From Alphaproteobacteria bacterium (lineage in GTDB: Bacteria; Pseudomonadota; Alphaproteobacteria; Rhizobiales; Hyphomicrobiaceae), in assembly GCA_019137195.1 (NCBI GenBank), contig JAGVSR010000064.1:1-64000 (forward strand): 64,000 nt of DNA. The letters are read 5' to 3'. Of the stretch, positions 401 to 49,049 are shown in pieces. A program made the translations under genes and the position numbers. The notes below the pieces were generated by a model. The model made no database searches. It was not told the DNA's origin and saw nothing but the letters and a program-made list of their open reading frames with translations. Each line of letters begins with the position of its first letter. Within the stretch, counting starts at the first letter, position 1.

Positions 401-723
401 AGAGCGCGCCCACCTTGACACCGACGGTGCTCACCGAAGAGCAATTCGACGAGCGGTTCCCACTGCTGACCAATCACCTCGATGGCAACGCGTCCTACGA
501 CGGCTGCATGTTCGAGACCTACGGACCTGAACTCGCCTTTGTGCGCCAGCAGAACCCTGACTGCATCTGGACGCTCATGACCGATGACAACGGCTTGCTC
601 TGCCTTGCGAGCGGGTACCATTTTGTCAACCGGCTGGGCTACCTGATTAGCACAGTCCCGGTCGAAGCCGGACTGGACTACTTCGTCCCCCTTGAAGAAC
701 CTGACGAGGAGGCGGACGCATGA
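397..723 (+). CDS. Hypothetical phage-like protein, 108 aa
   Basis: This is a soluble acidic protein (C-terminus EEPDEEADA) with no recognised family. The ATG overlaps the previous stop as ATGA, and the stop overlaps the next ATG at 720 in the same way, so it sits in a tightly coupled cassette. Its middle part (PDCIWTLMTDDNGLLCLASG followed by YHFVNRLGYLIS) looks like a small beta-rich fold. Small acidic proteins of this size are common in phage accessory cassettes, but no specific role can be read from the sequence. Confidence 0.6.
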   Translation: MKSAPTLTPTVLTEEQFDERFPLLTNHLDGNASYDGCMFETYGPELAFVRQQNPDCIWTLMTDDNGLLCLASGYHFVNRLGYLISTVPVEAGLDYFVPLEEPDEEADA

Positions 724-1385
724 GCGCCATCCGTCTCCTTCACCCCCGTGAAATTGCGATGCGCCGGAGCGCCAGCCCAACGGTTCGTGCGTTCCGGATG
801 GGCCCGCAAATTGCGCCGCATCGGGCGGCCTACGAGTTCTACCCGACCCCGCCGGAAGCGACCCGCGCGCTCCTTTCCGTGGAATCCTTCGACGGTCCCA
901 TCTGGGAGCCGGCTTGCGGGCAGGGGCACATTAGCAAGGTGCTCGTTGATGCTGGATATGAGGTGGTCTCGACCGACCTCGTGGCGTATGGCTACGGCGA
1001 AGCGAACCGCGACTTTCTCGCCGAAACCCGGCCTCTGGCCAAGCACATCGTCACCAACCCGCCGTATGGGCGGGGTCTGGCGGATGCGTTTGCGAAACAT
1101 GCGCTGAACCTGACCCGCGAGACCGGCGGCACGGTTGCCATGCTGATGAACCTCAGTGGGCTCTGCCATCCGCTGCGCCACGACTTCTACGTCAGCCAAC
1201 CGCCGGCCGTGATCTACGCGCTCGACGAGTGCACGTGTTGGCCCTACGGCGACCCGTCACGCGCGACGACGAGCATCGCGAAGCAGCGCTATTGCTGGAT
1301 CGTGTGGAAGCATGGGCACGATGGACCGACACTCTTTCGCTGGCTCAGCACGCGCGCGCTGCGGATGCAGACGCGACTGCAGTGA
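720..1385 (+). CDS. Phage-type DNA adenine methyltransferase
   Basis: The protein probably transfers a methyl group from S-adenosylmethionine to adenine in DNA. It has the two signatures of amino-methyltransferases: an AdoMet-binding motif I as EPACGQG at residues 63-69 and the catalytic motif NPPYG at 113-117. A PTPPEATRALL segment before motif I is typical of phage-encoded adenine methyltransferases. At 221 aa it is short and no separate target-recognition domain is seen. No restriction enzyme lies beside it, so an orphan, phage-protective enzyme fits better than a restriction-modification system. It is the last gene before the tRNA-Ala, coupled to the upstream genes by an ATGA overlap. Confidence 0.8.
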   Translation: MSAIRLLHPREIAMRRSASPTVRAFRMGPQIAPHRAAYEFYPTPPEATRALLSVESFDGPIWEPACGQGHISKVLVDAGYEVVSTDLVAYGYGEANRDFLAETRPLAKHIVTNPPYGRGLADAFAKHALNLTRETGGTVAMLMNLSGLCHPLRHDFYVSQPPAVIYALDECTCWPYGDPSRATTSIAKQRYCWIVWKHGHDGPTLFRWLSTRALRMQTRLQ

Positions 1386-1446
1386 CCGGCCGATTCCGGC
1401 GACCCATGCAGCGAGTTGGCGGAGGAGCTTTGGATTTTGTTTGGGT

Positions 1447-1466
1447 GTTTGCTAGGCGTTTGCTAG
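1447..1466. repeat. Direct repeat GTTTGCTAG x2, possible att/recombination arm
   Basis: The 9-base word GTTTGCTAG occurs at 1447-1455 and again at 1458-1466 with two bases between. It lies between the last phage-like gene and the 3' end of tRNA-Ala. Paired short direct repeats beside a tRNA can be integrase arm sites, but no integrase gene is visible, so this role is inferred. Confidence 0.35.
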
Positions 1467-1475
1467 CGGCTTCTT

Positions 1476-1491
1476 GGCGGTTTTGACCGCC
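1476..1491. terminator. Short hairpin between methyltransferase and tRNA-Ala
   Basis: GGCGGT at 1476-1481 pairs with ACCGCC at 1486-1491 around a TTTG loop. It lies downstream of both converging genes, the methyltransferase and the tRNA. No strong T-run follows on either side, so if it is a terminator it is a weak one. Confidence 0.35.
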
Positions 1492-1512
1492 GCTGTAACG
1501 CCTTGATATTAT

Positions 1513-1588
1513 TGGTGGAGCCGAGGGGAATCGAACCCCTGACCTCTGCAGTGCGATTGCAGCGCTCTCCCATCTGAGCTACGGCCCC
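1513..1588 (-). tRNA. tRNA-Ala (anticodon CGC)
   Basis: The reverse strand reads GGGGCCG, then GCTC..GAGC as the D stem, CTGCA-ATCGCAC-TGCAG as the anticodon arm (anticodon CGC after U33), AGGGG-TTCGATT-CCCCT as the T arm, and an acceptor closed by CGGCTCC, discriminator A and encoded CCA. Length is 76 nt and all arms pair. The 3' end points toward the phage-like genes, the usual side for integration of mobile elements. Confidence 0.93.
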
Positions 1589-1730
1589 GAACCGGGAAGG
1601 GCGCATTTAGGGCGTGGGGGTTCCTGTTGTCAAGGAACGCCGGGTCGTCTCGGCCGGCGGCGACGACGCGCTGGCGTCGGCTCGTATCCGCTCGCATCCG
1701 CTCGCGGCGGGACGTGCCGGCGAGGTGGCG

Positions 1731-2213
1731 TCACCCCGGTATGTCCGGCTCGACGAGGGCGGCGAGCTGGACGAGGCTCTCCTGCCAGCCCAGGTAGCAG
1801 GCTTCGACGGGAATGGCGGCGGAAATTCCCGACTGCTCGATCGAGACGTCGGTGCCGACGGAGACGGCCTTCAGGACGACCGTCACCTCCATCACGCCGG
1901 GCAGGCCGGGGTCGTCGAAGCGGTCGGTATAGCGGATGCGCTCATGGGGCACGAGCTCGAGATACTCGCCGCCGAAGGAGTGACCCGAGCCGGTTGTGAA
2001 ATTCGTGAACGACATCCGGAACGTACCGCCGACATTGGGGTCCATATGGTGGACCTTGCAGGTGAAGCCGCGGGGCGGCAGCCACTTGGCCATGGCGTCG
2101 GCGTCGAGGAAGGCGCGGTAGACCTTCTCGGGCTTGGCGGCAAGAACGCGGTGCAGGCGCACGGTACTGCCTGCCGCGGCGGAGGCAGCTTTCGGCTTCG
2201 TGGTGTTGGACAT
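1731..2213 (-). CDS. SRPBCC/AHSA1-family protein (START-like fold)
   Basis: This 160-residue protein belongs to the Aha1-C/SRPBCC group of small hydrophobic-cavity proteins, recognised from RVLAAKPEKVYRAFLDAD, the KWLPPRGF turn, FRMSF and the GWQESLVQLAALVE C-terminal helix. Members bind hydrophobic ligands and are usually of unknown substrate. The start at 2213 is chosen because AGGAGA lies just upstream and the recognisable fold begins shortly after; an upstream extension in the same frame to 2399 has unconvincing composition. Such genes often accompany an ArsR regulator, but none is present here. It looks monocistronic. Confidence 0.85.
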   Translation of the reverse strand: MSNTTKPKAASAAAGSTVRLHRVLAAKPEKVYRAFLDADAMAKWLPPRGFTCKVHHMDPNVGGTFRMSFTNFTTGSGHSFGGEYLELVPHERIRYTDRFDDPGLPGVMEVTVVLKAVSVGTDVSIEQSGISAAIPVEACYLGWQESLVQLAALVEPDIPG

Positions 2214-2547
2214 GGGCGTCTCCTGGCTGCAGCTATGGGAAGCGTTCCTTGCTCGGGCCTGCGATGTGGCACACGTCGCCTGTGTGAAACACTCGGCGCC
2301 ATCATGCGATCGAACCATCGCCCCGGAGTCAACCGCCGTGGCGAGGCGGGCGGTCGCCGACGGACGGCGCAACCGTCGGCGGACAGGGCCTGCCGGCAAC
2401 CGCCGGTCTGCCGCTCCTCCGTCCTCAATCCCTCACAATTGTTGATCATCAGCGGAGGCGTCTTGCATTCGGCCGCGATCATGAAAGGCTCGATGGCCGC
2501 AAGCATGGCAACTCGATCGCTGTCACGTGGACAATGGAGCATCCTCG
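2214..2547. other. Divergent intergenic region, no gene seen
   Basis: These 334 bases separate the divergent AHSA1-like and SET-domain genes and must hold both promoters. Frames are open by chance in this GC-rich DNA, but none has a convincing ribosome site or protein-like composition. I see no strong palindrome. Confidence 0.5.
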
Positions 2548-2976
2548 ATGCTGACGGTTAGAACTCAGGTTCAAGCCAGCCCGATTGCAGGCCTCGGACT
2601 TTTCGCTGCCGAGGCGATCGCCGCCGGGCAAGTGTGGTGGAAATTCGACCGGCGGATCGACCGGACCTACACGCAGGAGGAATTCGACGCGCTGCCGGGA
2701 CACATCCAGGACTGGCTCGGAACCTATGCCTATCTGCAGGGCGGCGTGTGGGTGCTGTGCGGCGACCACGCCAAGTTCGTCAATCACAGCGAGATGCCGA
2801 ACAGCGTGACGGTCGGCGACGAGAGCATCGCACTGCGCGATATTGCGGCCGGAGAGGAGATCGTCGAGAACTACCGCGAGTTCTGCGAGGACTGGCCGCT
2901 GATCCCTTTTCTCAATGCTGACGCAGCGGCACCGGCGGCCGCAGCCTCGTTGCCGGCCCTGCAGGCGCCGGTGTGA
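2548..2976 (+). CDS. SET-domain protein-lysine methyltransferase-like protein
   Basis: This 142-residue protein carries the core SET signatures: an N-terminal SPIAGLGLFAAEAI strand, FVNHSEMPNS with N79-H80-S81 at the AdoMet/pseudoknot position, and GEEIVENY with the conserved Tyr at 109. Bacterial SET proteins of this size are thought to methylate lysines or to be divergent relatives; the substrate is unknown. The ATG at 2548 is preferred over a GTG at 2527 because GGAG at 2536-2539 is spaced correctly for it. The C-terminus is an Ala/Pro-rich tail. It stands alone between the AHSA1-like gene and ppsA, in the same direction as ppsA. Confidence 0.85.
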   Translation: MLTVRTQVQASPIAGLGLFAAEAIAAGQVWWKFDRRIDRTYTQEEFDALPGHIQDWLGTYAYLQGGVWVLCGDHAKFVNHSEMPNSVTVGDESIALRDIAAGEEIVENYREFCEDWPLIPFLNADAAAPAAAASLPALQAPV

Positions 2977-5619: not shown

Positions 5620-6705
5620 ATGGCCGTCGACGACGAGCTGTCGCACGAGGAACTGCTGACGCGCCTGCAGGCCTTGGCCGAGCGCGCGATCCATCGCTTC
5701 GACCTGCCTTCGGGGGCGACGGCGAAGCTCATCAACCTGTCGGAGAACGCGACCTATCGCATCGACGATCTGGCGTCGGGGCAGAAGTGGGCGCTACGCG
5801 TGCATCGCGAGGGCTATCATTCGCGCCGGGGCATCGCGTCCGAACTCTTGTGGCAGCAGGCGCTCAAGGCCGATGGGGCCATCATCACCGCGTCGCCGAT
5901 CAGGGGACGCGACGGGGAGCTCATCCAGACGGTCGCGGTCGACGGCCTGCCGCGGCCACGCAACGCCGTGCTGTTCGAGTGGGAGGCGGGAGGCGAACCG
6001 GCGGCAGACGACATCCACGGCTACGAGCTTCTCGGCGAGGCCGCGGCGCGGATGCACCTGCACGTCAAGGCGTGGTCACGGCCTGCTTGGTTCGAGCGCC
6101 ATACCTGGGACTACGAGACGAGTCTCGGCGCTACGCCGCATTGGGGGCGCTGGCGTGACGGCATGGGAATGACGGCCGAGATCGAGGCCGTGCTCGGCAG
6201 GACGGTCGACCTCATCCGGCGGCGACTCGAGGCCTTCGGCAAGGGACCGGAGCGGTTCGGGCTCGTGCATGGCGACATGCGGCTCGCAAACCTGCTGATG
6301 GACGGGCGCACGGTCAAGGTGATCGACTTCGACGACTGCGGCTTCTCCTGGTTCCTCTACGATTGCGCGACCACGGTATCGTTCTTCGAGCACGAGACTA
6401 CGGTGCCGACGCTGCTCGCTGCCTGGGTCAAGGGCTACCGGCGCGTGGCACCGCTCTCTGCCGAGGACGAGGCGGAGATCGAGACCTTCGTCATGTTGCG
6501 GCGACTTCTCCTGGTCGCGTGGATCGGCTCGCATTCGGAGACGGAGCTCGCCCAGTCGATGGGGGTTGCCTACACGCAAAGCACCGTACCGCTGTGTGAG
6601 CGGTATCTCGCGAAGTTCGGCGGCCGAACGGAGGCCAGCGCGCCCGTCGCCTCCGCTGTGGCGGGGAAGGCAAGGACGGGGTTCTGGCGCCGGCTGTTCG
6701 GGTGA
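5620..6705 (+). CDS. APH/choline-kinase-like phosphotransferase of unknown substrate
   Basis: This is a kinase of the aminoglycoside phosphotransferase/homoserine-kinase-II fold, 361 aa. The catalytic loop is VHGDMRLANLL (H217, D219, N224) and the metal-binding motif is VIDFDDCG (D236). Members phosphorylate hydroxyl groups of small molecules such as choline, homoserine, hydroxylysine or amino alcohols. A GGGGGGAG ribosome site precedes the ATG. It converges on the SDR with only about 20 bases between stops. Its nearness to a permease, B12-dependent diol dehydratase and class III PLP enzyme suggests a catabolic kinase rather than antibiotic resistance; this is inference. Confidence 0.85.
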   Translation: MAVDDELSHEELLTRLQALAERAIHRFDLPSGATAKLINLSENATYRIDDLASGQKWALRVHREGYHSRRGIASELLWQQALKADGAIITASPIRGRDGELIQTVAVDGLPRPRNAVLFEWEAGGEPAADDIHGYELLGEAAARMHLHVKAWSRPAWFERHTWDYETSLGATPHWGRWRDGMGMTAEIEAVLGRTVDLIRRRLEAFGKGPERFGLVHGDMRLANLLMDGRTVKVIDFDDCGFSWFLYDCATTVSFFEHETTVPTLLAAWVKGYRRVAPLSAEDEAEIETFVMLRRLLLVAWIGSHSETELAQSMGVAYTQSTVPLCERYLAKFGGRTEASAPVASAVAGKARTGFWRRLFG

Positions 6706-6724: not shown

Positions 6725-7504
6725 TCACGCCTGCGCCAGCGCGTCGAGGCTCTCGGGCAGGATCTGGCCGCCATCGACGATGATGGTCTGGCCGGTGATG
6801 TAGCCCGCTTCCTTGGAGGCAAGGAAGAGCGCTGCGTAGCCGATGTCCTCGACCGTGCCGAGCTTCTTCAGAGGCACCGAGGCAGCCATCGACTTCTGGT
6901 ACTCCTCGCCGAGCGCGATCAGACCCTCGGTCAGGATATTGCCCGGGAGTACGGCGTTGACGGTGATACCGTACTTGGCGAGCTCGATGCAGGCTGTTCG
7001 CATGAAGCCGAGCTGGCCGGCCTTGGTGGCGCCGTAGTGCGTCCAGCCGGGGAAGCCCGTGACGGGGCCGGTGATGGAGGACGTGATGACGATGCGACCC
7101 TCGCCGGTCTTCTTCAGGTGCGGCAGGCAGGCCTTGATGGACAGGAACGTGCCTTTGAGGTTCGTGCCCATCACGAAGTCCCACTCCTCTGCCGAGAGGT
7201 CCTCGATCTTGGCCTGCGGGAAGATGCCGGCGTTGGCGCAGAGCACGTCGATGCCGCCGTGAGCCGTGGCGGCGGCGTCCGCCATCACCTGCATGGAGCC
7301 CATGTCGGTGACGTCGGCCGCATGGCCCTTGGCGGTGCATCCCATGCGGCGCAGCTCGTCGGCGGCGGCCTCGGCCTCGTCCAGGTGGCGGGAGACGACG
7401 AGCACCTTGGCGCCGTTCTTGGCGAAAACCCGGGCGATGCCTTTGCCGATGCCTTTGCTGGCGCCCGTGACGACGACCGACTTCCCGGCGACAGAAGTGA
7501 GCAT
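6725..7504 (-). CDS. SDR-family NAD(P)-dependent oxidoreductase (FabG-like)
   Basis: This is a classical short-chain dehydrogenase of 259 aa with cofactor motif TGASKGIG at 13-20, NAG at 91-93, and the catalytic Ser143, Tyr157 and Lys161 (YGATK). The C-terminal EDIGYAALFLAS and GQTIIVDGGQ strings are typical. It interconverts an alcohol and a carbonyl; the substrate cannot be told from sequence. It is the last gene of a run on the minus strand that begins with the diol dehydratase, about 100 bases after the permease stop, with a terminator-like hairpin between them. It could oxidise or reduce the aldehyde or ketone made by that pathway. Confidence 0.9.
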   Translation of the reverse strand: MLTSVAGKSVVVTGASKGIGKGIARVFAKNGAKVLVVSRHLDEAEAAADELRRMGCTAKGHAADVTDMGSMQVMADAAATAHGGIDVLCANAGIFPQAKIEDLSAEEWDFVMGTNLKGTFLSIKACLPHLKKTGEGRIVITSSITGPVTGFPGWTHYGATKAGQLGFMRTACIELAKYGITVNAVLPGNILTEGLIALGEEYQKSMAASVPLKKLGTVEDIGYAALFLASKEAGYITGQTIIVDGGQILPESLDALAQA

Positions 7505-7603: not shown

Positions 7604-9157
7604 CTACTCGTTGTAGACGAGGCGGCCGATTTTGGCGTGCGTCTCGGGTGCGGCGACGCGCAGGATGACGCCCCAGGCGAAGCCCCAGACAACGATGCCA
7701 AGGGCATAGTAGGGAATGTTCGAGCCGAACGCTCCGGCGCCGCCGAAGGTGGCGAGGTTCGTGACCAGGAGATAGACGAGATAGACCTGGGCGACGAACG
7801 AGATGACCGGCGCGATCAGCCCGGGGATGATGCCGACCTCGCCCGGATGGTTCTTCTGGAAGTAGAGCAGGATCGCGATCGATACGAAGGCCTGCAGGAT
7901 CAGCAGGAGCATCGTGCCGAGAATGGCGAGCATCGTATAGACGGCGACGTAGGCCTGCGCCGTCGGGTCGTCGGTGCCGAGGAAATAGGCGAAGAGCCCG
8001 AGCCAGAGCGCCGCCAGGGCCGACTGGCCGAGCGAGGCGGTATACGGGCTCTTGTAGGTCGGATGGGTCTTGCCGAAGAACGAAAGGAACACGCCCTCCC
8101 GGCCGAGCGAGTAGGCGTAGCGGGCGGCCGTGTTGTGGAAGGCCATGCCGCAGGCGAAGGAGCTCGTCAGGATGAGGAAGCCCATGAGCTCGGAGGCCCA
8201 GGTGCCGACATTCTGCTCGAGCGGCGTCAAGAAGAAGTTCGAAGAATCCTTCGCCGCCTTGGCGAGCATGTCGGATTCGGTCGGATAGGCCGAGACGGCG
8301 CACCAGCTGGTGATCGTGTAGAAGATGCCGAGACCGATGACCGAGATGTAGAGCGAGCGCGGTACGATGTGCTTGGGATCGACCGACTCCTCGGCATAGT
8401 TCGGCGCCATCTCGAAGCCGACCCAGCTCCAGAAGGCCATGAAGATGCCGACGGCGGCGGCGCCTGCTGCTATCGCGACCTCCTCGCCTGCAAAGGTTGC
8501 CTTCTGCTCGGCGACCGGAATGAACGCGTTCAGCGGGTTCAAGGCTGAGATGTCGAACTTGGCGGTCGGCGACATGGCCACGCCGGCGTTGAATACGAGG
8601 AGGATGAAGACCTCGAGGATCAACGCTACGCCGAGAATCTTGGCCGAGAGCTGCACGTCGAAGTGGCTCAGAAGAGCCGCCAGCACGACGCAGAACAACG
8701 CGAGCCAGATCCACTCGATGTCGATGCCAAAGTGCGCCTTGACCCAGGCATTGGCGAAATAGGCGAACAGGCCGTAGAGCGAGGCCTCGAACACGCTGTA
8801 GGACGCAAACGAGGCCATGCCCGACGCCATGCCCATATCGCGCCCCAGGCCGAGGGAGATGTATGAGTAGAAGCCACCGACGGATGATACCTTGCTTGCC
8901 ATCGCGGCGTAGCCGATGGAAAAGATCGTGAGAACGATGGTGGCGAGCAGGAATGCGCCCGGCATGTACATGCCGTTGCCGGCGCTGGCGCCGAACGGCA
9001 CGTTGCCGAGCATGGCACTCTCGGGTGCTGCGCCCGTCACGGTGAGGAACAAGACGCCCATGACGCCCACGGCCTTGCCGTGGAGCATGTCGACCTTTTC
9101 TTTCTTAACGTCGAAACTTTCCTGCGCCTCGAGCGCGCTTGCTGGTATCTGGCTCAC
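7604..9157 (-). CDS. APC-family amino acid/amine permease
   Basis: This integral inner-membrane transporter of about 517 aa has roughly twelve hydrophobic segments and the APC superfamily start VGVMGVLFLTVTGAAPES, followed by GNGMYMPGAFLLATIVL and FYSYISLGLGRDMGMASG. It probably imports an amino acid or amine by cation symport. I prefer the GTG at 9157, which has GAGGGAGA at good spacing, over an ATG at 9226 that lacks a ribosome site; the latter would add 23 polar residues. It lies downstream of the dehydratase and isochorismatase genes in the same direction, so the cluster's substrate is probably amine-bearing. Confidence 0.88.
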   Translation of the reverse strand: MSQIPASALEAQESFDVKKEKVDMLHGKAVGVMGVLFLTVTGAAPESAMLGNVPFGASAGNGMYMPGAFLLATIVLTIFSIGYAAMASKVSSVGGFYSYISLGLGRDMGMASGMASFASYSVFEASLYGLFAYFANAWVKAHFGIDIEWIWLALFCVVLAALLSHFDVQLSAKILGVALILEVFILLVFNAGVAMSPTAKFDISALNPLNAFIPVAEQKATFAGEEVAIAAGAAAVGIFMAFWSWVGFEMAPNYAEESVDPKHIVPRSLYISVIGLGIFYTITSWCAVSAYPTESDMLAKAAKDSSNFFLTPLEQNVGTWASELMGFLILTSSFACGMAFHNTAARYAYSLGREGVFLSFFGKTHPTYKSPYTASLGQSALAALWLGLFAYFLGTDDPTAQAYVAVYTMLAILGTMLLLILQAFVSIAILLYFQKNHPGEVGIIPGLIAPVISFVAQVYLVYLLVTNLATFGGAGAFGSNIPYYALGIVVWGFAWGVILRVAAPETHAKIGRLVYNE

Positions 9158-9178
9158 GTTCCACTTCTCCCTCGCTGC

Positions 9179-9199
9179 CCTGCCGAACCGCTCGGCAGG
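9179..9199 (-). promoter_or_regulatory. Strong stem-loop in the permease leader
   Basis: CCTGCCGA at 9179-9186 pairs perfectly with TCGGCAGG at 9192-9199 around a five-base loop. It ends about 22 bases before the preferred GTG start at 9157, placing it in the 5' untranslated leader. It could control translation or mRNA stability. If the longer ATG start is real, it would instead lie in coding sequence. Confidence 0.4.
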
Positions 9200-9351
9200 A
9201 CCTTCCCCTGATGCTCGATCCGGCATTTTGCCGAACGTTTAATGATCGTATCCAATGTTCCGAAAGGCAAGCACAAGCAATGGGCGATCACAGCCTAGTT
9301 TCCAGACATGGTTTCACTGGACCAAGTGCGTCGTGTTATTTGCATTTTGCG

Positions 9352-10047
9352 TCACGCGAGCGTCATGAGCGCCTTCAGCTCCGCGCTCGACATGACGTGG
9401 CAGTAGATCATGTTCATGATCTCTAGCTCCTTGCGGTGCAGCTCATCCGATCCCGCAGCGCAGCAATCCTCGACGACGACCACCGCGTAGCTCTCGTCGG
9501 CGAGACTTCTGACCGTCGAGGCCACGCACTGGTCGGTGAAGATGCCGACACAGACGACGGTCTTGATGCCGAGATTATTCAGGATTAAACGCAGGTTCGT
9601 GCCGGTCAGCGCGCTGTCGGTGGTCTTGATGACCACGATCTCGTCCCCCTGCGGCTGAAGCTCCTTCACGAGCTGCGACGGTTGCTCGTCCTTGGGCAAG
9701 AGAAGGTTGTTCCAGCCGGGAAGCTTTTGCGACAGCGAACGCTCGCGGCCATCCTTGGTGTGGCAGGCGATGCGCGCGAACAGGCATTCGATGCCGGACC
9801 GGCGAAAGCAAGAAAGCAGATCCATTGTGCGCGGAATCACGATCTCGCGCATGCGGTCGTGGAAAGGTGTCCAGGCGTCGTAGCGGCGCTGCTCGTCGGG
9901 TGACAGGGAAGCGCGGTTCGGGCGCTCGAGATACGTATTCTGCACGTCGATGACGAGGAGAGCCGTCGTTTTCGGGTCGAGGTCCGGGTCGGCCGGCTCA
10001 GGGGCGCCGTCGTAGTAGATGGAGCGGAAGGACGTTTTCCAGGACAT
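9352..10047 (-). CDS. Isochorismatase-family cysteine hydrolase
   Basis: This 231-residue amidohydrolase-like protein has the Asp-Lys-Cys catalytic triad of the family: D34 in VIDVQN, K141 in VIKTTDSA and C174 in FTDQCVASTVR. Relatives hydrolyse C-N bonds in compounds such as ureidoacrylate, biuret, N-carbamoylsarcosine or nicotinamide, or the enol ether of isochorismate; the substrate here is not evident. The start at 10047 has AGGAGA immediately upstream and is preferred over an ATG eight codons earlier. It sits between the diol dehydratase and permease genes on the same strand, consistent with release of ammonia or an amine in one pathway. Confidence 0.87.
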   Translation of the reverse strand: MSWKTSFRSIYYDGAPEPADPDLDPKTTALLVIDVQNTYLERPNRASLSPDEQRRYDAWTPFHDRMREIVIPRTMDLLSCFRRSGIECLFARIACHTKDGRERSLSQKLPGWNNLLLPKDEQPSQLVKELQPQGDEIVVIKTTDSALTGTNLRLILNNLGIKTVVCVGIFTDQCVASTVRSLADESYAVVVVEDCCAAGSDELHRKELEIMNMIYCHVMSSAELKALMTLA

Positions 10048-10156
10048 CGGGTCTCCTTGGGGTTGCGACATTCGGTGAGCGTCTCGAGTCTCGCTTCAGG
10101 CATCGCCACTTGCCGTCATCAAGGCCAAAGGCGCGACGCTCGCCGATCCATGGTTC

Positions 10157-10182: not shown

Positions 10183-10611
10183 TCAGAAGCGCTTCCTGAA
10201 CAAGCCGCGCCGCTCGTAGACCTCGGCCGCCTCCTCGACGAAAGCCGCCATTCTCTGGGCCCCGTGCTTGTCACGGAGGTCACGGGCGGCTGCGACGAGC
10301 TGGTCCTTGGTCTGCGCGCGCCCCGGCCGGAGCAGCTCGTAGATCTCCATGATGGTCTCGCCCGGCACCTCGACGAGCTCGGCAGCGCGCTCGAAGTTCT
10401 CGGCGAGCGTCGGGCGGCCGACGGCGCGAGCGATCTCGGCCTGCTGGGCGAGCGCCAACCCCGTAATGCGCAGGTCCTCCATCGTCACGGTGCCGTCGAG
10501 GACGGCGTCGAGGGTCAGCTCATCGACGGACTTGCCGCGCTTGCCCCTGACGAGGTCGGGCCGCTTCTCTGCGAGCGGATAGTCGGCGACGGTGAGCTTG
10601 TCGGCGCTCAT
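10183..10611 (-). CDS. pduE: B12-dependent diol/glycerol dehydratase, small (gamma) subunit
   Basis: This is the 142-residue small subunit of the adenosylcobalamin-dependent dehydratase that turns 1,2-propanediol, glycerol or a related diol into an aldehyde. The YPLAEKRPDLVRGKRGKSVDEL and TLDAVLDGTVTMEDLRI-type segments match the family core closely (quoted here in parts: DYPLAEKRPDLVRGK, LDAVLDGTVTMEDLRIT). It is about 30 residues shorter than the enteric subunit, lacking the N-terminal extension associated with microcompartment forms. Its ATG overlaps the stop of the fused large/medium subunit by one base (TGATG), implying coupled translation and fixed stoichiometry. Confidence 0.92.
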   Translation of the reverse strand: MSADKLTVADYPLAEKRPDLVRGKRGKSVDELTLDAVLDGTVTMEDLRITGLALAQQAEIARAVGRPTLAENFERAAELVEVPGETIMEIYELLRPGRAQTKDQLVAAARDLRDKHGAQRMAAFVEEAAEVYERRGLFRKRF

Positions 10612-12890
10612 CAGGTCCCCCCCAGGAACGTGATCTCGATGTCGTCGGGCTCGGCGCCTTCGGCGGTCAGCTCAGTCTCGATGGCGTAGATGAGCGATAC
10701 GCGAGCATGATAGCGGGCACCCATGGCCTCGCCGCGGGTCGGCACTACGACGGGCTCCGGCAACTTGCCGTTCGCGTAGGCGGCGGCGTTCTCGCCCATG
10801 CGCCGGTAGTGCTCGAGGCGGGTGATGGGCGAATTGGAGAACAGCTCGAGGTTGTTGTGGGGCAGGCGGTCCTTGTGATGGATGACGGCGGTGCCCTTGG
10901 CCTGGATGCCGATGCCGACGCCAGAGCCGGCGAGGCGGGCGGCGGAGAGACCGAGGAACGACGTATCGGCCGTGTGCCTCATGCGCACGACGCGGGCTCT
11001 GCAGCCGCCTGCCGCTATGCCGTCGGTCAATGCGCGCAGGATGGCGGACAAGGGGTGCCCGGCCACCGTCTGGAAAAGCTTGATGCCGAAGGCCGGGCTG
11101 ACGCCGACGACCACCTCGCGGGTGTCCTTGCCCGAGCCGGCCGGGCCGAGGGTCTTGTAGCTGATGCGCTTTGCTTCCGCCGCCTTATGCACACCCTCGG
11201 CGCGCAAGACCTCCTCGCGGGTGAGGACGTCGCGGATGGCGACCAGCTCGGCGCGGCGGGCCTCGCTTACGCGGTAGCCGGTGCCGGGGCCTAGGTAGTC
11301 GTTGGGATCGTTGACGGCCGAGAGGACGTGGCCGTTTCTCACCACGGCCGACGTCTGAAGGTAGTCGCCCGAGACTCGGAGGCGGACAACCTTCAGGAGG
11401 TTCTCGGCCTCGTCGCGGTAGCCGCGGCGTGCCAGGGCACGGATCACGTCGACGACGGTGATGCCCTTCGCCTGGATGGCCTCGCTGATGAGGGCGACAT
11501 CGCGCGGCAGGTAGCTCTCCGTCTCGTCGGAGCCGGAGGCGGCGACCACGGATGCCTTCATGGCGGCTGTGGGCTTCGCCAGATCCAGCTCCTCGAGCAC
11601 GGCCGACAGGGCCTCGACCGCGCGCTTCCTGAGCTCGAGGACGCGCGTCTCCTCGACCGGCGTCAGGCCGCCGTCGGCCTCGAAGTCGCGCTGGAGCACC
11701 AGGTAGTCCTCGAGCTCCTCGCCGTTCAGGAGCGAGGGGTTGAACGAGTTGTCGTACTTCAGGATCGAGCCGAAGCCCGAGCAGATGAGGTCCGAGCCGG
11801 AGATCAGGTAGGGCATGATCTTGGCACCGACGCGGATCTCGCTTTCCGTGGGGCGGGCATCGTTGCCCGAGGCGCATTCGAGATCGAGCCAGACGGCGAT
11901 CAGGTTCTCGGCCATCAGCTCCCGCATGCCCCCCGGTACGGTACAGGTGACCGGCGCGCCGTCGATGCCGCCGTTCTGGGTGCCCTGCACGCCCATCGCG
12001 CGCTGCAGGCAGAGGCAGCGGGCCTCGAGGTAGAGCAGCGACTTCTTCTCGTGGAACCCCATCAGCAGCTCGGAGCCCGCGCCCGAGGTGCAGCGCATCT
12101 TGATGCCGCGCGACGCGTAGGCGGCGGCGAGGAAGGCCTTCGACCAGGGCGTATCGTCGCCGTCGATGAAGCTCTTCTCGGTGCCATAGACGGATACGGT
12201 CTCGGCGTAGGAGGTGAAGCCCGCCATGCCGATTCGGAGCTCCTCGGCCTCCTCGGACGAGCACTGGAACAGCGTGCCCCAGCGGCCGACCGCGGCGCCG
12301 ACCGCGCAGGCCACGGCGTTCGACCACGAGTTGCGGGCGACCCGCATGGTGGTCTCGATCTCGTCGAAGCCGAAGGCGACGGCGGTCGCTGCGTCGGCAG
12401 CCATCTGCAGGGGATCGTCCTTGGCGTTGGTGACGTGACCCTGGTTGCCGGGCGTCTTCCTTGCTCGCATCTTGCCGTAGGCAAAGGCGATCTCGAGTGC
12501 GGAGAGGTGGGCCACCACGTCGGCCAGCTTGGCCGGCGTCAGCCCGTGGGCGAGGCGCACGAGGCGATCGCGTGGCACACTCATGTCGACCAGCATGCGG
12601 GCAAGCTCGATCGAGGGGATCGCCATCGCCTCCGGCATCACCTCGGGGTCGAGATGATAGCGGGCGATGAAGAGGTCGATCATGTCGAAGTCGGCGGCCG
12701 GCTTGCCGTCCATCATGGTGACGGTGCCGCCCGCGACCGCGCCTGAGGGCTTCGGGTCGTAGGGGCTCGCGAAGGCGGAAAAGCCGCTGGCGGCGTCCTC
12801 GACGGCGAAGCGGTCGAGCCGCAGGGGGCGCTCGTCCCAGTCGGAGAAGCGCTTCCAGCGGTTCGGCGACGGTCGCGGCGCGTCGGTCAT
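10611..12890 (-). CDS. Fused large+medium subunit of B12-dependent diol dehydratase
   Basis: The 759 residues join the alpha subunit (about 1-560, usual ~554 aa) and beta subunit (about 585-759, usual ~224 aa). From memory of Klebsiella oxytoca enzyme numbering, the substrate and potassium ligands all appear at a constant +9 offset: Q150, H152, E179, E230, Q305, D344, S371. The beta part carries VSPAFGIKLFQTVAGHP and GIGIQAKGTAVIHHKD for cobalamin contact. The enzyme should dehydrate a vicinal diol to an aldehyde by a radical path. Start 12890 is preferred over in-frame ATGs up to 12950. No reactivating factor (DdrAB/PduGH) or microcompartment shell gene is nearby, which is odd because the enzyme inactivates with glycerol. 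Confidence 0.93.
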   Translation of the reverse strand: MTDAPRPSPNRWKRFSDWDERPLRLDRFAVEDAASGFSAFASPYDPKPSGAVAGGTVTMMDGKPAADFDMIDLFIARYHLDPEVMPEAMAIPSIELARMLVDMSVPRDRLVRLAHGLTPAKLADVVAHLSALEIAFAYGKMRARKTPGNQGHVTNAKDDPLQMAADAATAVAFGFDEIETTMRVARNSWSNAVACAVGAAVGRWGTLFQCSSEEAEELRIGMAGFTSYAETVSVYGTEKSFIDGDDTPWSKAFLAAAYASRGIKMRCTSGAGSELLMGFHEKKSLLYLEARCLCLQRAMGVQGTQNGGIDGAPVTCTVPGGMRELMAENLIAVWLDLECASGNDARPTESEIRVGAKIMPYLISGSDLICSGFGSILKYDNSFNPSLLNGEELEDYLVLQRDFEADGGLTPVEETRVLELRKRAVEALSAVLEELDLAKPTAAMKASVVAASGSDETESYLPRDVALISEAIQAKGITVVDVIRALARRGYRDEAENLLKVVRLRVSGDYLQTSAVVRNGHVLSAVNDPNDYLGPGTGYRVSEARRAELVAIRDVLTREEVLRAEGVHKAAEAKRISYKTLGPAGSGKDTREVVVGVSPAFGIKLFQTVAGHPLSAILRALTDGIAAGGCRARVVRMRHTADTSFLGLSAARLAGSGVGIGIQAKGTAVIHHKDRLPHNNLELFSNSPITRLEHYRRMGENAAAYANGKLPEPVVVPTRGEAMGARYHARVSLIYAIETELTAEGAEPDDIEITFLGGT

Positions 12891-13165: not shown

Positions 13166-14503
13166 ATGGCCACCAAGCAGAAGATCCTCGACCTCAACGC
13201 CTTCGATATGCGCCATCCGGCCGGGCTCGATCCGGTTACGGCGGCGCTGGTGGAGCGGCGGCGCAAGACGTTCGGCCCGACGTCGATGCTGTTCTACAAG
13301 AAGCCGCTCAACCTCGTGCGCGGCGAGGGCGTCTGGCTCTACGATGCGGACGGCCGGCGCTACCTCGACACCTACAACAACGTGCCGTCGGTCGGACACT
13401 GTCATCCGCGCGTGGTGGAGGCCGTGGCGCGCCAGATGGGCGTGCTCAACACGCACACACGTTATCTCTACGACATCGTCTACACCTATGCCGAGCGCCT
13501 GCTCGCAACCTACCCGCCCGAGCTGTCCAATGTCGTTCTCACTTGCACGGGCAGCGAGGCCGTCGACCTCGCACTCCGGATCGTGCGCGCGGTGACGGGC
13601 GGCAAAGGCTTTATCGTGACCGCCAATGCCTATCACGGCAACACAACGGCCGTGACGGAGGTGTCTCCGTTCTCCGCCTCGAGCGAGCCGCCGTCGCCGA
13701 ACGTGTTCCTGGTCGATGCGCCCGACACCTATCGGCATCCGGGCGGCGCGGCCGAACGCAAGTTCGTCGCCGACGTCGCGAAGGCGCTCGAGGCGATGAA
13801 GAAGTCTGGCATCAAGCCGGCAGGCATGATGGTCGACAGCCTGATCACGAGCGATGGCGTCTATCCGGGCGAGCCGGGATTCCTCGACGAGGCGGCCGCG
13901 CTCGTGCGCAAGGCGGGCGGGCTCTACATCGCCGACGAGGTGCAGCCGGGCTTCGGGCGCACGGGCGGGCACATTTGGGGCTTCATGCGTCACGGCCTCG
14001 TGCCGGACCTCGCGGTGATGGGGAAGCCGATGGGCAACGGCTTCCCGATCGGTGGCACGGTTGTGAAGCCCGACATCTTGGAGGAGTTCGGGACCAGGAA
14101 TGGATATTTCAACACGTTCGGCGGCAGCCCGGCCGCAGCGGCGGCCGGACTCGCCGTGCTCGACATCATCAAGGACGAGAAGATCATGGAGAACGCTCGC
14201 GACACGGGCGCCTATCTCCTCACCGGCCTCAAGGGGCTGATGAAAAAGCACGAGGCGATCGGCGACGTGCGCGGCGCGGGCCTCTATCTGGGCATCGAGT
14301 TCGTGAAGAGCCGGAAATCGAAGTCGCCCGCAAAGGGCACCGCGGTCGGAGCGCTCAACACGCTTCGCGAGCGTGGCATCCTTGGTGGCAGCGCCGGGCT
14401 CCACGGGAACATCTGGAAGGTACGCCCGCCGCTCGTCTTCCGCCGCGAGCACGCGGATATGCTGGTCGAGGGGCTGGACGAGGTGCTAGCGGACTTGGCT
14501 TGA
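13166..14503 (+). CDS. Class III PLP-dependent aminotransferase/phospholyase
   Basis: This 445-residue fold-type I PLP enzyme has the class III core: YNNVPSVGHCHPRVVEA, TCTGSEAVDLALRIVRA, D257 in IADEVQPGFGRTG and the Schiff-base Lys287 in VMGKPMGNGFPIGG. It resembles the subgroup containing AGXT2-like aminotransferases and ethanolamine-phosphate/hydroxylysine-phosphate phospholyases, which cannot be separated reliably by eye. It is transcribed divergently from the B12 dehydratase operon. With an APH-type kinase 7 kb away and an amine permease between, a kinase-then-phospholyase route for an amino alcohol is possible; a plain transaminase is the simpler alternative. Confidence 0.88.
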   Translation: MATKQKILDLNAFDMRHPAGLDPVTAALVERRRKTFGPTSMLFYKKPLNLVRGEGVWLYDADGRRYLDTYNNVPSVGHCHPRVVEAVARQMGVLNTHTRYLYDIVYTYAERLLATYPPELSNVVLTCTGSEAVDLALRIVRAVTGGKGFIVTANAYHGNTTAVTEVSPFSASSEPPSPNVFLVDAPDTYRHPGGAAERKFVADVAKALEAMKKSGIKPAGMMVDSLITSDGVYPGEPGFLDEAAALVRKAGGLYIADEVQPGFGRTGGHIWGFMRHGLVPDLAVMGKPMGNGFPIGGTVVKPDILEEFGTRNGYFNTFGGSPAAAAAGLAVLDIIKDEKIMENARDTGAYLLTGLKGLMKKHEAIGDVRGAGLYLGIEFVKSRKSKSPAKGTAVGALNTLRERGILGGSAGLHGNIWKVRPPLVFRREHADMLVEGLDEVLADLA

Positions 14504-26305: not shown

Positions 26306-27460
26306 ATGAAGCGTACCAGCATTCTCGCCGCGCTGCCGGTGGCGGCACTCGCATGCGGAGGACTGATGCTCGCCAAGGGTCGCGTAGCTTACGCTGGCGA
26401 CGGCGAGGGTCAGGTGGATATCGTTGCCTGGCCGGGCTACATCGAGCGCGGCGAGACGGACAAGAACTACGACTGGGTGACCGGCTTCGAGAAGGAGACG
26501 GGCTGCAAGGTCAACGTCAAGACGGCGGCCACCTCGGACGAGATGGTGACGCTCATGAACCAGGGCGGGTTCGATCTCGTGACGGCGTCGGGCGACGCCT
26601 CGCTCCGTCTCATCGCCGGCAAGAAGGTGCAGCCGATCGACGTCACCCGCGTCGGGCTCTGGGACACCGTGGACGAACGGCTCCAGAACGCGCCGTGGCA
26701 CACGGTCGACGGCGTCCATTACGGCGTGCCGTTCCAGTGGGGCCCCAACGTACTCGCCTACAACACGGACGTGTTCAAGGAGGCGCCGAAGAGCTGGTCG
26801 GTGGTGTTCGAGGAGCAGAACCTGCCCGACGGCAAGAGCAACAAGGGCCGCGTGCAAGCCTACGACGGGCCGATCTACATCGCCGATGCGGCGCTCTATC
26901 TGGCAAAGAAGAAGCCGGAGCTCGGCATCAAGAACCCGTACGAGCTCAACAAGGCGCAGTACGACGCGGTCATCGATCTTCTGAAGTCGCAACGGGCGCT
27001 CGTCGGCCGCTATTGGCATGATGCCATGGTGCAGGTGGACGACTTCAAGAACGAGGGTGTCGTGGCCTCGAGCTCGTGGCCGTTCCAGGTCAACCTGCTT
27101 GCTGCCGACAAGAAACCCGTCGCGTCCGTGATCCCCGCGGAAGGGGCGACGGGCTGGGCCGATACGACGATGATGCACAGCGAGGCCAAGCACCCGACCT
27201 GCGCCTACAAGTGGCTCGAGCATTCTCTGTCGCCAAAGCTGCAGGGAGATCTCGCGTCGTGGTTCGGCTCGGTTCCATCGGTTCCGGCAGCCTGCAAGGG
27301 CAACGAGCTCCTGACGGACGGGGGCTGCGCGACCAACGGGTTCGACAACTTCGAGCAGATCTGGTTCTGGCGCACGCCGACGGCCAAGTGCGAGAAGGAA
27401 AGCGCGTGCGTGCCCTACTCGCAGTGGGCCAAGGACTACATCGCCATCCTCGGCAAGTGA
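26306..27460 (+). CDS. Polyamine-type ABC transporter periplasmic binding protein
   Basis: The 384-residue precursor begins with a Sec signal (MKRTSILAALPVAALACGG, probable cleavage after VAYA). The mature part follows the spermidine/putrescine-binding (PotD/YdcS-like) pattern: IVAWPGYIERG, GFDLVTASGDA, VPFQWGPNVLAYN and a C-terminal VPYSQWAKDYI. It has more cysteines than PotD, several near the C-terminus, which could form disulfides in the periplasm. GGAGGAG precedes the ATG. It is the first gene of the operon with the ATPase, two permeases and an aldehyde dehydrogenase, so putrescine or a similar diamine is the likely ligand. Confidence 0.88.
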   Translation: MKRTSILAALPVAALACGGLMLAKGRVAYAGDGEGQVDIVAWPGYIERGETDKNYDWVTGFEKETGCKVNVKTAATSDEMVTLMNQGGFDLVTASGDASLRLIAGKKVQPIDVTRVGLWDTVDERLQNAPWHTVDGVHYGVPFQWGPNVLAYNTDVFKEAPKSWSVVFEEQNLPDGKSNKGRVQAYDGPIYIADAALYLAKKKPELGIKNPYELNKAQYDAVIDLLKSQRALVGRYWHDAMVQVDDFKNEGVVASSSWPFQVNLLAADKKPVASVIPAEGATGWADTTMMHSEAKHPTCAYKWLEHSLSPKLQGDLASWFGSVPSVPAACKGNELLTDGGCATNGFDNFEQIWFWRTPTAKCEKESACVPYSQWAKDYIAILGK

Positions 27461-27476
27461 CGGGGTAGTGCATGAA

Positions 27477-27500
27477 GTGCCCGGCCGAGAGGCCGGGCAC
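27477..27500 (+). repeat. Perfect 10-bp stem-loop after the binding-protein gene
   Basis: GTGCCCGGCC at 27477-27486 pairs perfectly with GGCCGGGCAC at 27491-27500 around GAGA. It begins 17 bases after the binding-protein stop. Such stem-loops often protect the upstream message from 3' decay or partly stop transcription, giving more binding protein than membrane components. No long T-run follows. Confidence 0.7.
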
Positions 27501-27507
27501 CGCCTCG

Positions 27508-27550
27508 AGCCCCCTCATTTTAGCCCTCTACCCAGGAAGGGGAGGGGGCT
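27508..27550 (+). repeat. Second intercistronic inverted repeat (REP-like)
   Basis: AGCCCCCTC at 27508-27516 is the exact inverse of GAGGGGGCT at 27542-27550. The interior CCCTCTACCC resembles the dispersed REP-like units seen elsewhere. Together with the preceding stem-loop it fills most of the gap before the ATPase gene at 27588. Confidence 0.6.
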
Positions 27551-27587
27551 CTTGGTTCATACGCCGACACTAAGAAGTCTGCACCCC

Positions 27588-28604
27588 ATGACCTCGCCAG
27601 CCGTACGGTTTCAGAACGTGTCGCGCCGCTTCGGCGAGGTGAAGGCCGTCGACGGCGTGTCGCTCGACATCGCACCGGGCGAGCTCTTCGCCATGCTGGG
27701 GCCGTTGGGGTCGGGAAAGACGACCTGCCTTCGCCTCATCGCCGGCTTCGAGCAGCCGGACGAGGGACACATCGAGATCTTCGGTGCGCGCGCGGACGGG
27801 CTTCCCCCTTACAAGCGCAACGTCAACACGGTGTTCCAGGACTACGCGCTATTCCCGCACATGACGGTCGGCGAGAACGTCGCTTACGGGCTGATGATCA
27901 AGGGGATGGGGCGGGCCGAGCGGGAGAGCAAGGCGGCCGAGGCGCTCGCGATGGTGAAGCTCAAGGGCTTCGAGGCGCGGCGGGCGGCGCAGCTCTCGGG
28001 CGGGCAACGGCAGCGCGTTGCGCTCGCGCGGGCCCTCGTCAACAATCCAAAGGTGCTGCTGCTCGACGAGCCGTTGGGTGCGCTCGACCTCAAGCTCCGC
28101 GAGCAGATGCAGGAGGAGCTTCGCGCGCTGCAAAAGGGGCTCGGCATCACCTTCGTCTTCGTCACTCACGACCAGGGCGAGGCGCTGTCGATGGCCAACC
28201 GGGTGGCCATCTTCAACGAAGGTCGCATCCAGCAGGTGGGCACTCCGACCGATGTCTACGAGCGGCCGAGGACGCGGTTTGTTGCCGATTTCGTCGGCTC
28301 GGCCAATGTGCTGGCGCCCGATCTCGCCGGCCGGCTCGGCGCCGGGCCGCGGTGGGTGAGCCTCAGACCGGAAAAGATCACGCTGCTCGCCGACGGACAG
28401 GGGGCACCCGAGGGGTGGGTTTCGCTCGACGGCAGGCTCGCCAGTGCGAGCTACCAGGGCTCCGTCACGAGGCTCGCCGTCGATGCGGAAGGGGTGCGGA
28501 TAACGGCAGCGGTGCCCGCGGGGTCGGCGCCGATCGTCACCGGGAGCACTCTGCGGCTCGCCTGGCCCAAGGCCGCCATGGTCCTGCTCGAGGGCGAGCC
28601 ATGA
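27588..28604 (+). CDS. Polyamine-type ABC transporter ATP-binding protein
   Basis: This 338-residue cytoplasmic ATPase powers the transporter. Walker A is GPLGSGKT at 38-45, the signature is LSGGQRQRVALARALV, Walker B is VLLLDEPLGALD and the switch His lies in FVTHDQGEA. A TOBE-like regulatory tail of about 90 residues follows, as in PotA. The Leu in GPLGSGKT, where Ser is usual, is a small variation. The ATG at 27588 opens directly on the conserved MTSPAVRFQNVSRRFG; an upstream in-frame ATG at 27468 would run through the intercistronic hairpins. The stop overlaps the first permease start (ATGA). Confidence 0.92.
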   Translation: MTSPAVRFQNVSRRFGEVKAVDGVSLDIAPGELFAMLGPLGSGKTTCLRLIAGFEQPDEGHIEIFGARADGLPPYKRNVNTVFQDYALFPHMTVGENVAYGLMIKGMGRAERESKAAEALAMVKLKGFEARRAAQLSGGQRQRVALARALVNNPKVLLLDEPLGALDLKLREQMQEELRALQKGLGITFVFVTHDQGEALSMANRVAIFNEGRIQQVGTPTDVYERPRTRFVADFVGSANVLAPDLAGRLGAGPRWVSLRPEKITLLADGQGAPEGWVSLDGRLASASYQGSVTRLAVDAEGVRITAAVPAGSAPIVTGSTLRLAWPKAAMVLLEGEP

Positions 28605-29542
28605 GCACGCGGGCGGCGGCCGGGAGGCAGGGTGGCGTCGGAGAGGCGATCTCCGATGTATTTTTCGCGCGTCCGGGCCTCTTGACGCTTCTGCTTCTGC
28701 TGCCACCGCTCCTCTGGATCGGAGTCGTCTACATCGGGTCGCTGATCGCGCTGCTTCTGCAGAGCTTCTACTCGCTCGACGATTTCTCGGGGCTCGTCGT
28801 TCACGACTTCACCCTCTCGACCTACGGGCAGCTCCTCGAGGAGGCGAACGTAGGGATCATCGTGCGCACGGTCGCGATGTCGGCGCTGGTGACGCTCGCC
28901 TGCGCTCTGATCGCGTTCCCGATCGCCTATTATGCGGCGCGCTACGCAAAGGGCTGGAAGAAGGCCCTCTTCTATCTTGCGGTCATGATGCCCTTGTGGT
29001 CGAGCTATCTGGTCAAGGTCTATGCGTGGAAGCTGATCCTGGCCAAGGAAGGCATCCTCACCTGGATCGCGAGCGGACTCGGGATGACGTGGCTGCTCGA
29101 GGGGCTCCTCGCGCTTCCGGTGATCGGCGGGCCGTCGCTGTCGTTCAGCTATATCGGCACCTTCCTCGTGTTCGTCTACGTGTGGATCCCGTACATGATC
29201 CTGCCCATCCAGGCGGCGCTCGAGCGGGTTCCGGCGAATCTCATCGAGGCCTCGGCCGATCTCGGCGCCGAGCCGTCGCAGACGTTCTGGCACGTCATCT
29301 ATCCGCTCGCGCTGCCGGGCATCGTGGCGGGCTCCATCTTTACGTTCTCGCTGACGCTCGGCGACTACATCATCCCGCAAATCGTCGGCAACTCGCGGCT
29401 CATGATCGGGCAGGCGGTCTACACGCTGCAGGGAACTGCAGGCAACATCCCGCTCGCCGCCGCGTTCACGGTCGTGCCGATGGTGATCATGGGGTTCTAT
29501 CTCTGGATGGCGAAGCGGATGGGGGCATTCGATGTCCTCTGA
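28601..29542 (+). CDS. Polyamine-type ABC transporter permease 1 (PotB-like)
   Basis: This 313-residue inner-membrane protein has about six hydrophobic segments, beginning with [19 protein letters not shown]. The EAA loop that docks on the ATPase is visible as [20 protein letters not shown]. The ATG overlaps the ATPase stop and its own last bases overlap the second permease start, so the three genes are translationally coupled. By position and length it is the PotB-type subunit. Confidence 0.92.
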
Positions 29543-30344
29543 CCCGAAAGCGCCCCTCGGGCTCAGGATTGCGGCCACGGGCGGGCTGCTGCTGCTGCAC
29601 CTGCCGCTTCTGCTCATCGTCGTCTACGCCTTTACGACCGAGGAGAAGAGCTTTCAGTTTCCGCCGCCGGGCTTCACGACCAAGTGGTTTGGGATCGCCT
29701 GGAGCGAACGGCCCGACATCTGGCCACCACTCTTTCTGTCGCTCAAGGTGGCGGCGATCGCGACGTGCCTTGCGCTGGTGCTCGGCACGTTCGCCGCGGC
29801 GGGGCTGTCTCGCGCGCGGTTCTTCGGTCGCGAGACGGTGTCGCTTCTGTTCGTGCTGCCGATCGCGCTGCCCGGCATCATCACCGGCATCTCGCTGCGG
29901 TCGGCGTTCGACATCATGGGGCTCGACTTCTCGACCTGGACCATTGTCCTGGGGCACGCCACCTTCTGCATCGTCGTCGTCTACAACAACGCGATCGCAC
30001 GTTTTCGGCGGCTCGGCGGCAATCTCATCGAGGCCTCGATGGATCTCGGGGCGAATGGACTGCAGACGCTCTACTACGTGGTGCTGCCGCAGATCGGCAC
30101 GGCACTGCTCGCAGGCGGCATGCTCGCCTTTGCGCTGTCGTTCGACGAGGTCATCGTCACGACGTTCACGGCCGGGCAGCAATCTACCCTCCCGATCTGG
30201 ATGCTGTCCGAGCTGATCCGTCCACGGCAGCGGCCGGTGACCAACGTGGTTGCGGTGTTCGTGATCGTGACGACGATGGTGCCCATCCTGTTGGCCTACT
30301 ATCTCACGCGCGAGGGCGAGCATACAGGCGGGTCGTCGAAGTGA
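29532..30344 (+). CDS. Polyamine-type ABC transporter permease 2 (PotC-like)
   Basis: The 270-residue second permease has six predicted membrane segments, starting with [18 protein letters not shown], and the EAA loop [20 protein letters not shown]. The motif [13 protein letters not shown] near residue 200 is typical of PotC/PotI. It overlaps the first permease by eleven bases. The aldehyde dehydrogenase follows 114 bases later in the same direction. Confidence 0.92.
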
Positions 30345-30458
30345 GCCGAGGCGAGGGACTGCAGACATTCAAGGGCTGCGCGGAGCGCGCCAGCCCGACT
30401 TGCGAGAACGAGACGACACGCTGGCGGGCCGGCTCAAGGCAGTAGAGACAGGGAGCTC

Positions 30459-49040: not shown

Positions 49041-49049
49041 TCAGGGGCT
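49020..49049. repeat. 15-bp tandem duplication across the RTX stop codon
   Basis: GGCCGTTCAGGGGCT occurs at 49020-49034 and 49035-49049 with no gap. The right copy contains the RTX stop (TCA at 49041-49043 on this strand) and the codons for its final Pro; the left copy repeats that stop in the same frame. Confidence 0.85.

Follow-up and report, generated by a model that had tools for sequence, protein, structure and literature searches.

The window, by which we mean the whole stretch of 64,000 nucleotides that was analysed, encodes the large (alpha) and medium (beta) subunits of a B12-dependent diol dehydratase in one chain, followed by a separate gene for the small (gamma) subunit (Table 1). 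The fused gene starts with ATG, encodes 759 residues uninterrupted by stops and has a strong coding signal; a second possible start is an in-frame ATG four codons upstream. In the fused chain, Pfam recognised Dehydratase_LU at residues 11-558 (704.7 bits) and Dehydratase_MU at 598-709 (92.4 bits), while the NCBIfam models for the large and medium subunits covered residues 10-561 and 559-755, respectively. The medium-subunit match begins at profile position 24, so that little of this subunit beyond its N-terminal end is missing. The small subunit matched Dehydratase_SU with 163.6 bits, and its gene is joined to the fusion at GGGACCTGATGAGC, where stop and start share one base of TGATG. With all three subunit domains present (PF02286/PF02288/PF02287), the enzyme belongs by its sequence to the AdoCbl-dependent diol/glycerol dehydratases. 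Both the 759-residue chain of large and medium subunits and the separate small subunit with its TGATG overlap had been part of the original prediction, and both were confirmed by these domain matches and by the junction sequence.

Table 1. Features of the dehydratase locus, with positions in the window
Feature	Position	Strand	Basis
APH-family kinase	5620..6705	+	best PDB match 6ef6, E 5e-86
Short-chain dehydrogenase (SDR)	6725..7504	-	PDB matches include 6ci8/6ci9
APC-type amino acid/amine permease	7604..9226	-	domain match
Isochorismatase-type cysteine hydrolase (putative amidase), next after small subunit	9352..10071	-	domain match
Small (gamma) subunit, 142 aa, TGATG overlap with fusion	10183..10611	-	Dehydratase_SU
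Fused large (alpha) and medium (beta) subunits, B12-dependent diol dehydratase, 759 aa	10611..12890	-	Pfam/NCBIfam domains
Alpha domain of fusion, residues ~11-558	11217-12860	-	profile match
Beta domain of fusion, residues ~559-755		-	profile match
Codon of A345, equivalent to Klebsiella Q336	11856..11858	-	alignment; Q336 role PMC9850924
Codon of D310, equivalent to Klebsiella S301, which contacts the C3 group of the substrate	11961..11963	-	alignment; S301 role PMC9850924
Class III PLP enzyme, nearest solved phospholyases 5g4i, 6tor	13166..14503	+	divergent from dehydratase

Residues 150, 152, 179, 230, 305, 344 and 371 of the fusion are Q, H, E, E, Q, D and S, and they align with Q141, H143, E170, E221, Q296, D335 and S362 of the solved Klebsiella chain, exactly at the +9 offset proposed earlier for the catalytic and potassium ligands. 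All seven are invariant in our alignment of 87 fused and four split homologues. A catalytically complete enzyme had been anticipated; since all seven catalytic and metal residues are present, activity is indeed predicted. The AlphaFold prediction for this chain (mean pLDDT 54, pTM 0.42) was too poor for reading the active site or the contacts of D310.

The fusion is widespread. Of 184 relatives in a scan of GTDB genomes, the 80 listed carry the same gene at 67-84% identity, among them Hyphomicrobium, Mesorhizobium, Dongia, Bauldia, Roseovarius, Defluviimonas and Azospirillum; adding further fetched loci, an uninterrupted alpha-beta fusion was found in about 86 other loci from many families. 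Plasmids of Agrobacterium and Shinella also carry the fused gene, and 9 of 385 genomes in a sample of the class gave any large-subunit match. In a maximum-likelihood tree, built by a quick method with a midpoint root and showing long branches, the alphaproteobacterial fusions with Asp at the position of Klebsiella S301 (D301-type) are separated from the split enzymes as a single group (SH-aLRT 100), with the window enzyme inside a nine-row Hyphomicrobium clade (support 98). Of the genera with published fusions, this tree covers Mesorhizobium and Hyphomicrobium, whose sequences group in the clade of the window enzyme. The locus L086, labelled Halieaceae, carries a copy near-identical in the tree to that of the Paracoccaceae locus L088, which is probably due to a binning error in the public assembly.

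Such a distribution bears on whether the fusion might be an artefact. About 86 intact relatives with the same fused frame rule out a sequencing error or frameshift as its origin. The broader suspicion, that an error, a frameshift or a decaying gene merely resembles a fusion, can point to one genome (G163) that does hold a broken remnant of a fused-type dehydratase gene, but with the fusion intact in so many families, every catalytic residue kept and the coding signal of the window gene strong, we regard it as extremely improbable. The remnant in G163 lies at ~1415-2604 (-) of locus L009: its ORF corresponds to the first part of the large subunit, and the C-terminal end of a small subunit follows within ~500 bases in a different frame.

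Natural fusions of this kind lacking a reactivation factor were reported for Mesorhizobium, Mycobacterium and Hyphomicrobium in PMC4777399, which, like PMC7674605, cites Liu 2010 for them. These dhaB1-dhaB2 dehydratases share with the window enzyme the single alpha-beta chain, the separate small subunit and the absence of a reactivation factor, and the window enzyme differs from them in nothing essential. Fused, reactivase-free dehydratases are thus already described and common in Alphaproteobacteria, and the window holds a further member. PMC4777399 credits Liu 2010 with noting a slightly different active site. Compared with Klebsiella PduCDE/DhaB, the window enzyme has the same domain families, the same seven catalytic and metal residues and the same subunit order, but it is naturally fused, carries the changes S301D and Q336A, lacks DdrAB and the PduE-type extension, and has other neighbours. 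Laboratory alpha-beta fusions of the Klebsiella-type dehydratase are active, and one of them was inactivated more slowly (PMC7674605); we read the fusion chains in the PDB (9vi2 and others) as such laboratory fusions of the Klebsiella enzyme rather than natural ones.

The reactivase had been noted as missing from the window, and this absence extends to the whole 4.04-Mb genome, estimated to be 100% complete: PF08841 gave no match there, and PF02288, which is expected to catch the chaperone's beta-like subunit as well, matched the fusion alone, with no second, DdrB-like copy. PF08841 was likewise found in 0/47 genomes carrying the fused gene, and no reactivase was found in another six fused genomes, estimated to be 99-100% complete. 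One of these, G148, represents a distant second fused lineage, its fused protein being 44% identical to that of the window, with S301 kept and A336 present. As a positive control, two plasmids with split enzymes were matched in the same search at E 1e-145 or better, and reactivase genes are annotated in all four split loci considered (haloarchaeal, fusobacterial and enterobacterial). A tblastn search using three DdrA queries and one DdrB query revealed no homologue in the fused neighbourhoods. A dissimilar reactivating factor may be encoded in these genomes. In the current model, the chaperone's beta-like subunit displaces the beta subunit of the enzyme and frees the damaged cofactor (PMC7674605); we infer that a covalent alpha-beta fusion should hinder this exchange. 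Cobalamin genes, for which a genome search had been suggested, were found in the form of CobN and a PduO-type adenosyltransferase, so that AdoCbl is plausibly made.

The dehydratase does not stand alone. Read in its direction, the order of genes is phospho-lyase-like enzyme (reverse), fusion, small subunit, hydrolase, permease, SDR and kinase (reverse); because the first is divergent from the dehydratase and the last convergent to it, a single operon is not established for the window. The kinase has 6ef6 as its sole strong PDB match (runner-up 2e-12), which we take to be the M. smegmatis microcompartment enzyme that phosphorylates (S)-1-amino-2-propanol. The structures 6ci8/6ci9, presumably the aminopropanol dehydrogenase of the RMM system, matched the SDR no better than the SDR structures 3pk0 and 3rih did. 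The class III PLP enzyme matched a phospholyase (E 6e-107) and an ethanolamine-phosphate phospho-lyase (1e-98) in the PDB well above transaminases. Across 89 loci and the window, a set that includes some short contigs, tblastn detected homologues of the kinase in 45, of the SDR in 63 and of the isochorismatase-type hydrolase in 58; we prefer these counts to the neighbourhood map, where antisense ORFs sometimes mask the small subunit and the hydrolase. The Agrobacterium and Shinella loci present a one-strand series of fusion, small subunit, ABC ATPase, SDR, kinase and class III enzyme. Conserved neighbours of this sort rule out a fully free-standing enzyme, and the original prediction of one is contradicted by the permease, SDR, APH-type kinase and class III PLP enzyme nearby.

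Several other genes deserve a brief comment. Locus L015 (11298-12026) and ten others have, between the isochorismatase-type hydrolase and the ABC transporter, a gene similar to class I glutamine amidotransferases; its product could cleave a gamma-glutamyl amine. An operon resembling ydcSTUV-patD lies 13 kb away from the dehydratase, at window positions 26306-31895; it comprises ABC genes together with genes for a YdcS-like binding protein of the polyamine type and for an aminobutyraldehyde dehydrogenase (PRK13473, 768 bits, above cut-off). As there was no evidence of linkage, we dropped this operon as a partner of the enzyme. A 2044-aa ORF at 49041-55175 (-) opens with repeats of the type 'YVVFSSVATNLV...VFVRDLETGT'.

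The set of kinase, SDR, permease and class III PLP enzyme is, by homology, that found beside the dehydratase in RMM2/Aaum loci (PMC4207490, PMC8007038). Unlike these, the window belongs to a genome in which neither PF00936 nor PF03319 was detected, so the absence of microcompartment genes, claimed earlier for the window, holds genome-wide; in addition, tblastn found within the window no homologue of the acylating aldehyde dehydrogenase of shell loci. Shell genes lie within the dehydratase neighbourhood in 20 of the loci searched by tblastn, and genome-wide PF00936 is present in 30/47 relatives and absent from 17/47, the latter including those of Mesorhizobium and every one of the eight that were searched in the Hyphomicrobium clade (L021-L028). 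At L017, the shell genes comprise a BMC-T nearest to the RMM protein MSM0275 (E 3e-84) and a BMC-H, and the aldehyde dehydrogenase is nearest to acylating enzymes. The PLP enzyme of the window is of a different subfamily from that of shell-bearing loci: at L017 (12554-15508) and similar loci, the class III enzyme is nearest to putrescine aminotransferase, whereas that of the window is phospho-lyase-like. The aldehyde dehydrogenase of L017-type shell loci has ~50 additional N-terminal residues. Whether or not a locus has shell genes, its small subunit lacks a PduE-type N-terminal extension, consistent with a cytosolic enzyme. Axen et al. described the RMM2 loci with a diol dehydratase beside amino-alcohol genes, and doubted that the shell pathway makes use of this enzyme (PMC4207490).

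The strongest clue to a different substrate, overlooked by the original prediction, is the pair D310/A345, since the window enzyme does not have the canonical PduCDE/DhaB pocket residues S301 and Q336. The position of S301 is occupied by Asp in 86/87 fused enzymes, the sole exception being G148, and that of Q336 by Ala in 83, Thr in three and Ser in one, so that all 87 are changed; the split enzymes, a comparison set of four sequences only, have Ser and Gln in 4/4. The changes C302G, I303A, L295T and S365G co-vary with D301, and the alignment around S301 is ungapped and bounded by invariant QNG and AEN motifs. In Klebsiella, S301 may bind the 3-hydroxyl of glycerol, and Ala at S301 or Q336 reduces glycerol inactivation and widens the range of diols (PMC9850924); our argument about the pocket extends from these Ala mutants to Asp. 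The Asp at position 301 suggests a fit to a positively charged group on C3 of the substrate, although D310 may pair with an internal Arg rather than with a substrate amine.

Taking these features together, we consider it rather probable that the window encodes a cytosolic, reactivase-independent dehydratase, placed beside RMM/Aaum-type amino-alcohol genes and acting on a small vicinal diol, probably one with an amine group. Two fused alpha-beta chains and two small subunits would form the enzyme; the beta domain would cap the cobalamin, and the alpha domain would hold the adenosyl group, the metal ion and the vicinal diol, which AdoCbl radical chemistry would dehydrate to an aldehyde. The enzyme would run without DdrAB, the fusion hindering any swap of the beta subunit by the chaperone, and the small residue in place of Q336 would alter the part of the pocket linked to suicide inactivation, possibly conferring tolerance. 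Its site of action would be the cytosol, alongside the permease, SDR, kinase and phospho-lyase, in a lineage without shell genes. Given Asp at 301 and an enlarged pocket, the likeliest kind of substrate would be a diol with a C3 amine, for example 3-amino-1,2-propanediol or a related compound. The earlier proposal of another diol or an amino alcohol as substrate has thus gained support from D310/A345 and the amino-alcohol neighbours, short of proof.

The main rival to this reading is an ordinary dehydratase of 1,2-propanediol (or glycerol) that supplies the propionaldehyde pool of the aminopropanol branch, with the fusion and pocket changes mainly protecting against inactivation. The metal and catalytic residues are those of the canonical enzymes, propionaldehyde would come from both branches, and Klebsiella Q336A prefers 1,2-propanediol over longer diols (PMC9850924); Asp in place of S301 is nevertheless hard to explain if the pocket faces only a methyl group. 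Paracoccus yeei TT13, an alphaproteobacterium listed as an RMM2 carrier, grows on 1,2-propanediol, but the authors of that work argue that the diol is oxidised to pyruvate, and they report no pdu operon, so we do not treat this growth as decisive for the substrate. On balance, an ordinary dehydratase seems to us unlikely, if a serious possibility. The amino-alcohol neighbours might also suggest a direct ammonia-lyase on an amino alcohol (e.g., 1-amino-2-propanol), similar to ethanolamine ammonia-lyase and serving as the main enzyme of the pathway. This we find quite improbable: the residues binding the metal and both diol hydroxyls are all kept, and the neighbours already supply a kinase/phospho-lyase route for amino alcohols.

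Returning to the amine-bearing diol that we favour, it is tempting to suppose that the D301/A336 fused family is a separate class, namely a reactivase-independent B12 dehydratase for cationic vicinal diols that would yield 3-aminopropanal-like aldehydes in an amino-alcohol pathway with shell-bearing and shell-free forms; we offer this wider idea tentatively, as a possible one. What this analysis adds is the absence of the reactivase across the fused genomes, the shared pocket change and the amino-alcohol gene setting. We did not find the family-wide D301/A336 pair, the genome-wide lack of reactivase or the amino-alcohol neighbours stated in the papers on these fusions that we consulted.

The industrial use of canonical diol dehydratases is limited by their self-inactivation and their dependence on an ATP-driven chaperone. 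Herein we describe a widespread natural family that is apparently chaperone-free and altered at the very two positions, S301 and Q336, chosen by engineers. The fused enzymes are therefore direct candidates for asking whether the fusion or the pocket change abolishes the need for reactivation. One amino-alcohol cluster occurring both with and without a shell also offers a natural comparison of the purpose for which a microcompartment is needed.
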